DNA from: Gemmatimonadota bacterium
GTDB lineage: Bacteria; Gemmatimonadota; Gemmatimonadetes; Longimicrobiales; Gaopeijiaceae
Length of the DNA: 45,281 nucleotides
Reading direction: 5' to 3'
Assembly: GCA_028874995.1 (NCBI GenBank)
Contig: JAPPGM010000084.1
Span: 1-45,281, forward strand
Positions 932 through 3,777 of the stretch are shown in pieces. The notes beneath the pieces are model-generated. The model saw only the letters and a list, made by a program, of their open reading frames with translations, had not been told where the DNA came from and did not search any database. Position 1 is the stretch's first letter, and every line of letters begins with the position of its first letter. Both the position numbers and the translations under genes were made by a program.

Positions 932-1966
932 ATGAACGATGCCGGCCTACCCGGCATGGATGCCGTAGGTGATTCCGGGGGCAAGTCCGAGTCACTCCCG
1001 ACCGCCTTCCTCATGCATCCCTCCGCGGTATTGCACGACACGGGTTGGGGGCATCCGGAACACCAGGGCCGGCTGCGCGCGGTGGCGTCGGCGCTGAAGG
1101 AGGACCTGGTCGCGCTGCACGGGAGGGTGGAGCAGGTCGCGCCGGAGGCGGGCAGCGAAGAGGATGTGGCGTTGGTCCACGACGCCGCGCTGATCGAGAC
1201 GGTGCGCGAGGCCGTGGGCCAGGCTCGCGAGTGGGGCCAACCGGCGGCGATCGACGCCGACACGCGAGTCTCGGGGGCGTCCTGGGAAGCGGCGCTGGGG
1301 ACGGTGGGGGCCGGACTCGAGGCTGTGCATGGGGTAGTGGGGGGGCGATACCGCAATGCCTTCGTGGCCGCGCGTCCCCCCGGGCATCACGCAACGCCGG
1401 GCCGCGCAATGGGATTCTGTCTCTTCAACAACATCGCCGTCGTGGCCGCGAGCCTGCGGGCGCGCGGCGAGGCCGGACGGGTCCTGATCGTGGACTGGGA
1501 CGTGCACCACGGGAACGGCACCCAGGACATCTTCTATGAGGACCCGGACGTGTTCTTCCTGTCGCTCCACCAGTACCCGCACTATCCCGGCACGGGGGCT
1601 GCGAACGAGACGGGACGGGGTAGGGGGGAGGGGTTCACGCTGAATGTGCCCCTGAGTCCGCGGACGCCTCGCGCCCACTACCTGAACGCTTTCGCGAAGG
1701 CGCTCGATAACGCGGTTTCCCGCTGCGAGCCCGACTTCATCCTGGTGTCGTCCGGTTTCGATGTGCTCGCGGGAGATCCGCTGGGCGGCCAGTTGCTGGA
1801 GCCCGAGGACCTCCACGAGACGACGCGGATGGTGATGGATGCGGCGGAGCGCTTCTGCGGGGGTCGGGTTGTGGTATTCTTGGAGGGAGGCTACGACCCC
1901 GTCCGGCTCGGAGAGGGATGCGTGGCCGTGATCCGGGCGCTGGCAGGGGTCTCAACGGATGTCTGA
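932..1966 (+). CDS. Histone deacetylase family protein (class II / AcuC-like amidohydrolase)
   Basis: A 344-residue arginase-fold zinc deacetylase, normal length for the bacterial class II HDAC-like group. Visible signatures run in order: the catalytic histidine pair in RPPGHHATPGRAMGFCLFNN, the metal-binding VDWDVHHGNGTQDIFY, the SSGFDVLAGDPLGG aspartate loop, and the C-terminal FLEGGYD with the catalytic tyrosine. Bacterial members deacetylate acetyl-lysine, acetylpolyamines or similar amides; the substrate cannot be read from sequence. The ATG at 932 has only a weak ribosome site, and the family homology begins near the methionine at residue 28 (MHPSAVLHDTG), so translation could start about 80 bases later. 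It follows carB by 15 bases and is probably co-transcribed with it. Confidence 0.93.
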   Translation: MNDAGLPGMDAVGDSGGKSESLPTAFLMHPSAVLHDTGWGHPEHQGRLRAVASALKEDLVALHGRVEQVAPEAGSEEDVALVHDAALIETVREAVGQAREWGQPAAIDADTRVSGASWEAALGTVGAGLEAVHGVVGGRYRNAFVAARPPGHHATPGRAMGFCLFNNIAVVAASLRARGEAGRVLIVDWDVHHGNGTQDIFYEDPDVFFLSLHQYPHYPGTGAANETGRGRGEGFTLNVPLSPRTPRAHYLNAFAKALDNAVSRCEPDFILVSSGFDVLAGDPLGGQLLEPEDLHETTRMVMDAAERFCGGRVVVFLEGGYDPVRLGEGCVAVIRALAGVSTDV

Positions 1967-2029
1967 GCGAAGAAGGAAGTCGAAGGTAGAAGGTATGACC
2001 GCAGTGGCCGGGTCCGGTAAGGAGTCGCA

Positions 2030-2572
2030 ATGCGTGTCCGGCTGACGAGAGACGCCGGTACTGGACGGTGGTTTGCGCCGCTGTTCGCGGCGCTGGTGTC
2101 GGCCTGCGGTACGGATCTCCCGCCGGAAGCCGCCGAACTCGCTTCGCGCGACGCGGCGGCGATGGCCGAAGAAATCCACCCCGAGGCGAGTGAGGCGATC
2201 TCGAAGCTTTTCTCGCCCGTCCACCCCGGCGAGATGCTCGAAGTCTGCCGGTCCCCCGACGCGGTGGCGCTGAGGGACAGCATCAACGCCATGGCCCATG
2301 GCGGTATGCCCGCCGATAGCATAATCGAACGGGTGGTGGCGACCCACGGCGAGGAGTCTCGCGCCTATCCGAAGCGGTCCGGACGTGGGCTCCTCGCCTG
2401 GACAATACCTCCGGCGATGCTCGTCGCCGGACTTGGTGTCGTTGTTCTCGTGCTGCGTCGGCTCAAGGGACCGGCGCCGGTGGCTGGTCGGGCCGACCTG
2501 ACCGATGAAGAGAGGGACCGCCTGGACGCGGCCCTCGCCGAACTTGAAGAGATGGAGGAAGCGCAACAATGA
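2030..2572 (+). CDS. CcmH-like lipoprotein with a degenerate thiol motif
   Basis: A 180-residue envelope protein. Residues 14-26 form a short signal ending in VSAC, a lipobox with Cys26 as the likely lipidated residue. The middle (about 50-110) resembles the CcmH/CycL/NrfF thiol-reductase domain of cytochrome c maturation, in the variant form I know as SPxCPGxxLxxCxSPxA. Here it reads SPVHPGEMLEVCRSPDA, so the first motif cysteine is His65 and only Cys73 remains. A membrane segment follows (about 124-144), then a charged tail starting LTDEERDRLDAAL, as in CcmH proteins. Loss of the cysteine pair argues against normal thiol-disulfide exchange. No other ccm genes are in the window. The stop overlaps the next start (ATGA), suggesting translational coupling. 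Confidence 0.7.
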   Translation: MRVRLTRDAGTGRWFAPLFAALVSACGTDLPPEAAELASRDAAAMAEEIHPEASEAISKLFSPVHPGEMLEVCRSPDAVALRDSINAMAHGGMPADSIIERVVATHGEESRAYPKRSGRGLLAWTIPPAMLVAGLGVVVLVLRRLKGPAPVAGRADLTDEERDRLDAALAELEEMEEAQQ

Positions 2573-3777
2573 ACGCGGAAGCCGGTGCGACGCGGGCGTT
2601 GCTCTCCAGGAAGGACGGGGTCGCCAGGGTGCAGGCGGCGCTCCGGGACATGGGGCTGGACGGCTGGCTGCTCTACGACTTCAAGGACCGCAATCCGATC
2701 GGGCGCGCACTGCTCGGGCTGGAGTGGACGACCCGGCGCGGCTTCGCCCTGGTCCCCGCCTCGGGTCACCCGCGCCTCTTGATCCACGCCATCGAGCACT
2801 CGTCCTGGCGCCACCTGGACTGGCCCCGCGAAAGCTATTCGAGCCGCATTGAAATGGTGGACCGGCTGCGCGACCTCCTGGCCGGGTGCAAGCGGGTGGC
2901 CACCGAGACATCGGCGCGGGGCGATGTCCCCTACCTCGATCTCCTCCCCGCCGGCATCCGCGACATCATCGTCGACATGGGCGTCGAACTCCACAGTTCG
3001 GGCGACCTCGTCTCCACCTTCTACGCGGTGTGGACCCCGGCGCAACGCGAGGAGCACGGCCGCGCGTCCGAGCTCGTCAAGGTCCTGGCCGGGGACGCCT
3101 TCGCGCGGGCCGCCGACCACATCGCACGCGGCGAGCCGATCACCGAAGGCGAGCTCGCCACCTGGATCCGCGACGAGTTGGCGCGGCGCGGCGCGCCCAT
3201 TCACGCGGACTGCATCGTCGCGATCGGCCCGAAGGCCGCCGACCCTCACTACGATCCGGGTGAGACCGGCGAGCCGATCCAGCGCGGCGACCTCCTCCTG
3301 ATCGACCTGTGGGGCGGCTTCCACGAGAACTCCGTGCCCGCCGACCAGACGTGGATGGGCTTCATGGGCAACGAACTCCCACCACGGATTGCCGAGTTGT
3401 GGGAAACTGTGAAGGCCGCGCGCGACGGTGTGGTCGACTCGCTGCGGGCGCGCTGGGCCCGGGGCGAAGTGCTGCGCGGCTTCGAGGGCGACGATGTGGC
3501 CCGCCGGATCATCACCGACGCGGGGTACGGCGAGTACTTCATTCACCGTACCGGCCACTCGATCGATCTGGACATCCACGGCCGCGGTCCCAACCTGGAC
3601 AATCTGGAGACCCGCGACGACCGCGTGCTCGTTCCGGGGGTAGGCTTTTCGGTGGAACCCGGCATCTACATCGCGGACGATGTTGGGCTCCGTACCGAAA
3701 TCAACGTGTTCATGGGACCGGACGGTCCGGAGGTCACGGTGGCGGAGCCGCAGCAGGATGTGTTTCTGCTGCTGTGA
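2569..3777 (+). CDS. M24 family metallopeptidase (Xaa-Pro dipeptidase/aminopeptidase-like)
   Basis: A 402-residue cytoplasmic protein of the pita-bread fold, with no signal peptide. The N-terminal creatinase-like domain (about 10-150) contains MGLDGWLLYDFKDRNPIG. The C-terminal catalytic domain carries the five metal-ligand motifs in order: LLLIDLWGGFHENSVPADQT (two Asp), HRTGHSIDLDIHG (His), FSVEPGIYI (Glu) and GLRTEINVF (Glu). Such enzymes cleave the bond before proline in short peptides or act on related imino bonds. The start overlaps the CcmH-like gene by four bases. A second, different M24 gene lies at 25837, so the two probably have different substrates. The five metal-ligand positions all appear intact. 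Confidence 0.92.
   Translation: MNAEAGATRALLSRKDGVARVQAALRDMGLDGWLLYDFKDRNPIGRALLGLEWTTRRGFALVPASGHPRLLIHAIEHSSWRHLDWPRESYSSRIEMVDRLRDLLAGCKRVATETSARGDVPYLDLLPAGIRDIIVDMGVELHSSGDLVSTFYAVWTPAQREEHGRASELVKVLAGDAFARAADHIARGEPITEGELATWIRDELARRGAPIHADCIVAIGPKAADPHYDPGETGEPIQRGDLLLIDLWGGFHENSVPADQTWMGFMGNELPPRIAELWETVKAARDGVVDSLRARWARGEVLRGFEGDDVARRIITDAGYGEYFIHRTGHSIDLDIHGRGPNLDNLETRDDRVLVPGVGFSVEPGIYIADDVGLRTEINVFMGPDGPEVTVAEPQQDVFLLL

Follow-up and report, generated by a model that had tools for sequence, protein, structure and literature searches.

Canonical CcmH proteins (PF03918; PDB structures 2hl7 and 2kw0) carry an RCxxC motif, whose second Cys is described as exposed and is the proposed attacking residue, with the first Cys buried (PMC3884852). 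The Cys residues of E. coli CcmH are reported not to be essential under all conditions (PMC3420020), and CcmH is described as likely to position CXXCH for CcmF (PMC10746174). In the System I* variant, as defined in PMC3601427, CcmE has Cys where the heme-binding site otherwise has His, and this Cys-type CcmE operates with CcmABCF. Of the bacteria with this system, about one third have CcmH and two thirds are without it, and the Desulfovibrio System I* matured cytochrome c in E. coli in the absence of CcmH and CcmG (PMC3601427).

The stretch of DNA analyzed here (the window, 45,281 nucleotides of a Gemmatimonadota bacterium) is the whole of contig C42 of its own genome, G000 (4.52 Mb in 191 contigs, 96.7% complete and 1.6% contaminated). 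The first-pass annotation had proposed that the open reading frame at 2030–2572 encodes a CcmH-type protein with one motif Cys replaced by His. This was borne out: PF03918 covers residues 45–169 with 50.3 bits (E 1.9e-13, Pfam cut-off 25 bits), and codon 65 is CAC. The motif, SPVHPGEMLEVCRSPDA, holds His65 and Cys73. As the annotation had it, the Cys left in the relevant sites are Cys73 and the lipid-anchor Cys26, both read at their codons, and the gene is translationally coupled to a downstream gene, an M24 peptidase by Pfam, whose ATG overlaps the ccmH stop (ATGA, 2569–2572). No second PF03918 match at E≤0.001 was detected in the own genome (191 contigs at 96.7% completeness, with assembly gaps remaining), so that, as far as the assembly reaches, no other intact CcmH accompanies this one. 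The redox Cys pair, be it RCxxC or the SPxC...C form of this Gemmatimonadota family, is absent. With His65 and Cys73 in place of such a pair, the window protein is a CcmH homologue and not a two-Cys thiol oxidoreductase. The features are collected in Table 1.

Table 1. Coordinates of the features discussed (window positions unless a locus is named).
Feature	Position	Strand	Basis or remark
ccmH, divergent CcmH, 180 aa	2030..2572	+	PF03918 50.3 bits
Cys26 codon TGC, lipid-anchor Cys, lipobox-like VSAC	2105..2107	+	sequence; lipobox judged by eye
His65 codon CAC, in place of the Cys of 22/22 genus relatives	2222..2224	+	sequence, alignment
Cys73 codon TGC, remaining motif Cys	2246..2248	+	invariant in the 17-row genus alignment
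Predicted transmembrane helix, residues 128-145	2411..2464	+	helix from low-confidence model; membrane span by eye
Recombinant tract, approximate ends	2250..2510	+	like G137/G044/G239/G032 clade; gene and flanks like G006/G080/G187
Histone-deacetylase-family (HDAC) gene, conserved upstream neighbor	932..1966	+	PF00850 307.8 bits
M24 peptidase gene, conserved neighbor overlapping ccmH	2569..3777	+	PF00557 118.6 bits
In-frame TGA, candidate selenocysteine CcmH, genus g23	L129 843-845	-	
In-frame TGA, candidate selenocysteine CcmH, genus g23	L133 633-635	+	

The genus profile aligned the Cys of SPxC with the second Cys of RCPKC in E. coli CcmH (2kw0) and set the later Cys opposite the Ser of IADS, in both cases weakly (E 0.14). 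A four-sequence model, of poor quality (mean pLDDT 60), has helices at residues 51–61, 76–90, 95–110 and 128–145, and places the motif in the loop that follows helix 51–61. Its best PDB matches by Foldseek were the CcmH structures 2hl7 (probability 0.93, E 0.26) and 2kw0 (E 1.5), which are not significant by E-value; profile and Foldseek searches both ranked these two structures top, weakly. A PDB search with the single sequence returned unrelated weak matches only. An identity as NrfF (TIGR03147) was rejected, the likeness being confined to the C-terminal part at 13.8 bits, far under the cut-off of 159.2. The window protein shares with canonical CcmH the Pfam family and, in the poor model, apparently the order helix, motif loop, helix, helix, transmembrane helix. 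In contrast with canonical RCxxC, it has Ser for the buried first Cys, His for the attacking second Cys and one Cys eight residues on, and its gene lies outside the ccm operon. As judged from the profile alignment, the buried first Cys is already Ser in the subfamily as a whole, and the window protein would additionally be without the attacking Cys.

Position 65 was followed through the genus and the family. Each of the 23 genus genomes, that of the window among them, contains one CcmH of the window's type, and in the other 22 position 65 is Cys in every case; a comparison with related CcmHs had been proposed in the annotation. In a 17-row genus alignment Cys73 is invariant, and the nearly invariant C65 and Y110 are altered in the window; most conserved positions, Cys73 among them, are retained. 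A profile search of 121 genomes matched 82, namely the 23 of the genus and 59 others. Fifty-three of these 59 have the window's CcmH type, and the SPxCPGxxLxxC form given in the annotation proved to be general in the family: residue 65 is encoded as Cys in 51, and two have an in-frame TGA there. (L139 was counted as Cys by its true motif, a scripted 'G' there being a wrong-frame match; G310, one of the 51 Cys loci, is a partial gene; and two fragments, G254:C324 and G204:C156, stand outside the count.) The remaining six genomes matched solely via other CcmH types, and a scan of nine loci of such types found no SPxC motif; in genomes with no match, this CcmH may be absent or lie on missing contigs. 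Together, 75 of 75 non-window loci have Cys or TGA at position 65 (22 Cys in the genus, 51 Cys and two TGA in the rest of the family). Because Cys or TGA is kept throughout, residue 65 is under strong selection in the family, and loss of the Cys may cost function.

Two further observations concern the CcmH types themselves. In G044, G239 and G032 (L050, L051 and L053), of the donor-like clade described below, the motif is one residue longer, SPFCPPPYL.ENC. G239 also has a second PF03918 protein (G239:C12, L057) of a CxCxC-like type, and similar types occur alone in some other family genomes.

The annotation had also observed that no ccm gene lies near ccmH. This holds for the whole contig: all CcmC/CcmF (PF01578), CcmF_C and CcmE matches of the own genome are on another contig, C171, where ccmE-ccmF-ccmI-like-ccmA-ccmB-ccmC (L004 13864-8870) are found without ccmH and the ccmI-like product is a short zinc-ribbon protein replacing the TPR-type CcmI. 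(CcmC, CcmE, CcmF and CcmH were assigned by Pfam, whereas CcmA, CcmB and CcmI-like rest on resemblance and gene order.) The 20 relatives compared (20 of 22; G038 and G264 were left out) share the order carB-HDAC-ccmH-M24, with carB named by eye, as far as their contigs extend, and HDAC, ccmH and M24 (window 932–3777) also stand together in most of seven further family loci. No CcmH at E≤1e-5 was found in the ccmE-ccmF-ccmI-like region of 15 family genomes (19 loci, four genomes being represented twice). In the family f3, of the same order, ccmH adjoins the ccmI-like gene in 17 of 17 loci and has ccmF on its other side in 16 (the seventeenth, in G262, is cut by the contig end). These surveys of the ccm regions show, therefore, that ccmH is apart from the operon in the window's family and within it in f3. 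The annotation had raised a changed role next to the missing ccm neighbors. These do not show one, because ccmH sits by HDAC and M24 in the 20 genus relatives compared and in most of the seven further family loci, and it is likewise outside the ccm region in the 15 family genomes.

The CcmE of the own genome has the motif LTKCGSRF, with Cys at the heme-binding site as in System I* and Phe where Tyr is usual. Of the 57 loci in a CcmE motif scan, 46 were read, 11 as His type and 35 as Cys type. Genomes with an SPxxP-type CcmH and a readable CcmE have Cys-type CcmE in 21 of 21 cases. An RCxxC CcmH was read in eight of the 11 genomes with His-type CcmE, and the other three (G001, G016 and G028) have PF03918 matches of at least 95 bits. 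The link between CcmE and CcmH is not strict, since G003 and G023 combine a KCPVC CcmH with Cys-type CcmE. His-type and Cys-type CcmE occur in one genome in G016 (L245/L281) and in G305 (L259/L280), where two System I variants apparently exist side by side. The own genome yielded 16 cytochrome-c-like matches, 12 of them over the cut-off, and hence likely holds substrates for cytochrome c maturation.

By its gene content, the own apparatus is best assigned to the System I* type, with which it shares Cys-type CcmE and CcmABCF (PMC3601427). It differs from most such systems in keeping CcmH, though minus the redox pair; CcmH is likewise kept in the one third of System I* bacteria noted above (PMC3601427). 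We lean, by a little, towards the reading that the window encodes a functional CcmH whose task is to present apocytochrome to CcmF, with no two-Cys redox cycle, in a System I*-type apparatus.

The history of the gene was approached by comparing 40-nt blocks with 20 relatives. Where aligned, ccmH positions 2061–2220 are 75–87% like G006/G080/G187. Positions 2261–2500 are 65–92% like G137/G044/G239/G032 and 52–70% like G006/G080/G187, and from 2541 on the sequence is mostly nearer G006/G080/G187 again (85–87% in the first block). In the tree of the tract the window clusters with G032/G044/G137/G239 at an ultrafast bootstrap of 93 (99 with G289), in the tree of the flanks with G006/G080/G187 (83; 99 with G123 and G167), and in that of the N-terminal part also with G006/G080/G187 (bootstrap 84). 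The block in between, 2221–2260, contains His65 and is at most 75% like any of the 20 relatives; His65 is found in none of the four donor-clade genes. By block similarity and trees alike, the gene is a mosaic of two genus clades with His65 at the left junction, and His65 may have come with the donor or arisen at the junction. A compensated frameshift as the origin of His65 was rejected, since the relatives align codon by codon at the site without a frameshift.

Comparison of the window with the donor clade over 65 codons of the tract gave a dN/dS of 0.18–0.30; the values were 0.17–0.18 among members of the donor clade and 0–0.30 among other genus pairs. The window values, at or slightly above the controls, argue against advanced decay, within the reach of a pairwise measure that does not isolate the window branch and in which a very recent loss would not show. 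They bear on the view, which we rate as unlikely, that the gene is decaying: recombination or a later mutation would have removed the catalytic Cys, and loss would be under way as System I* spares CcmH. The alteration of two nearly invariant residues, Cys65 and Tyr110, the low similarity of the junction block and the roughly two thirds of bacteria with Cys-type CcmE that are described as lacking CcmH (PMC3601427) all fit such a course. However, the frame is open, the start and the stop overlap are kept, the tract dN/dS is low as given above, and Cys73 and most conserved positions are retained.

The same mosaic could in principle be an assembly or binning artefact, with the clade switch and His65 created by merged reads of co-occurring species of the genus. 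His65 is known from one MAG assembly, related species of the genus may be expected to live together, and the double clade switch falls within about 300 nt. Against this, the junction contains no indel, and a double crossover over such a short distance is, from general knowledge, unlike the usual single-join chimera. The tract is 65–92% like any sequenced donor and the flanks are about 75–97% like the recipient clade, so no sequenced pair was simply joined. We regard an artefact as quite unlikely.

Loss of the Cys is not confined to the window. A search of 21 f3 genomes gave matches in 18; one match is a canonical RCxxC protein, and the other 17 are SPxxP-type CcmHs that have, at the equivalent of Cys65, Cys in six, Thr in nine (SPVTP) and Gly in two (SPFGP), with the later Cys retained in all 17. 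All 11 genes without this Cys (among the L225-L242 loci) sit in ccm clusters, 10 of them flanked by ccmF and the ccmI-like gene and one cut by a contig end. These proteins belong to the same subfamily as the window protein and have lost the identical Cys and kept the later one. They differ in having Thr or Gly, with the gene inside the ccm cluster, whereas the window has His and its gene lies outside. Pairwise dN/dS of four SPVTP pairs is 0.18–0.53, with 0.16 for the single two-Cys pair compared; these values therefore suggest that the one-Cys genes of f3 are constrained, some only moderately. Selenocysteine in f3 CcmH was rejected, SelB being over the cut-off in none of the six f3 genomes tested. 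A lost supply of reductant as the cause was also rejected, since all 29 genomes tested have DsbD_TM (CcdA/DsbD type) matches irrespective of the state of CcmH, with no correlation. Since 11 of the 17 f3 proteins have Thr or Gly at position 65, what recurs is the disappearance of this Cys and not the acquisition of His.

It is thus very improbable that His65 serves the new heme- or metal-binding role suggested in the annotation: eight residues separate His65 from Cys73 within a single inter-helix loop of the poor model, and the two could be ligands in principle, but the recurrent losses place Thr or Gly at the site in genes that stay in ccm clusters, His occurs in one sequence only, the loop is poorly modelled (residues 66–68 have pLDDT <50) and no further conserved ligand was noticed.

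Two members of genus g23, which belongs to the window's family, have TGA at the counterpart of codon 65, namely G277 and G189 (SPY-TGA-PGQMLQVC). Both frames carry this TGA at the otherwise conserved Cys and run to the same end as those of the Cys relatives G206 and G287. A 12-nt core, TGCAGGTCTGCA, follows 13 nt after the TGA in both genes and is absent in the TGC relatives. The same core stands 14 nt after the in-frame TGA of codon 140 in E. coli fdhF; that codon encodes selenocysteine, and the core belongs to its SECIS. The core partly encodes the conserved Cys73, and the match is therefore not free of coding constraint. The two TGA genes, compared with each other, have a dN/dS of 0.50 ahead of the TGA and of 0.37 behind it; compared with the TGC genes, they have 0.20–0.23 behind it. 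The stem after the TGA folds, but with z-scores of -0.8 and -0.3 against shuffles, and one TGC control is equally stable by another stem. A hairpin as proof of a SECIS was discarded, since 9–12% of shuffles and 13% of background stretches conform to the loose rule used.

The decoding machinery was surveyed in parallel. A tRNA-Sec of ~69 bits is present in both G277 and G189, and ARAGORN called tRNA-SeC (tca) in G277, G189, G206 and G287. The own genome has a tRNA-Sec copy at a contig end (68.9 bits) that ARAGORN did not call. The tRNA-Sec model matches 14 of 14 control genomes, five of them over the cut-off, and only high scores count. SelB reaches 320.2 bits in G277 and 327.9 bits in G189 (cut-off 242), and is over the cut-off in nine of nine family genomes tested, the own genome included, and in two of 14 controls. 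The two TGA genes apparently fit a selenocysteine CcmH. These candidates share family, locus type and motif with the window; they would keep a chalcogen nucleophile at position 65, whereas the window is without one. We found no one-Cys or selenocysteine CcmH in open-access papers searched by title or abstract.

Returning to the reading of a working CcmH, the chain of events could be as follows. In the relatives, residue 65 (Cys, or apparently selenocysteine in two of them) and Cys73 would form a displaced counterpart of the canonical RCxxC redox pair. Intragenic recombination between two genus clades would have left a junction at the motif, where Cys65 became His. The product, a small, helical, membrane-anchored CcmH with a C-terminal transmembrane helix, would serve Cys-type CcmE, CcmABCF and the small CcmI-like protein encoded elsewhere, by holding apocytochrome and CcmF together and presenting CXXCH. 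Cys73 would at most form a mixed disulfide, resolved by another thiol; the two-residue redox cycle would be lost, and System I* may bear that loss. The residues, the single detected CcmH copy, its separation from the operon, the type of CcmE, the mosaic, the low pairwise dN/dS and the parallel losses are observed; from them we infer continued function, these partners, a mixed disulfide at most and a CcmE type that makes the loss tolerable. Counting against this reading are the retention of Cys65 or TGA in all 75 other family loci, the change of Tyr110 as well, the weaker constraint on the one-Cys genes of f3 when compared with the two-Cys pair, the limits of pairwise dN/dS, the loose link between the CcmE and CcmH types, the restriction of His65 to one MAG and the poor structure model.

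These data suggest that (i) His65 is best read as one case of the recurrent loss of the attacking residue in divergent CcmH, here at a recombination junction and in one MAG; and (ii), more tentatively and with some doubt on our part, position 65 may be an evolutionary switch, with Cys the rule, selenocysteine in one genus, and Thr, Gly or His elsewhere; with any of these three, the one-Cys CcmH would still serve maturation. The reviews PMC3601427 and PMC3884852 treat it as unsettled whether the role of CcmH is thiol chemistry or the holding of apocytochrome for CcmF. Cys, apparently selenocysteine, Thr, Gly and His in otherwise similar CcmHs form a natural mutational series for that question. 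Confirmation of a selenocysteine CcmH would add a selenoprotein family not found in the literature searched and would identify the residue as the redox nucleophile. If position 65 is such a switch, the window would supply a naturally occurring knock-out of this nucleophile in a functioning System I*, separating the presenting role of CcmH from its redox role.
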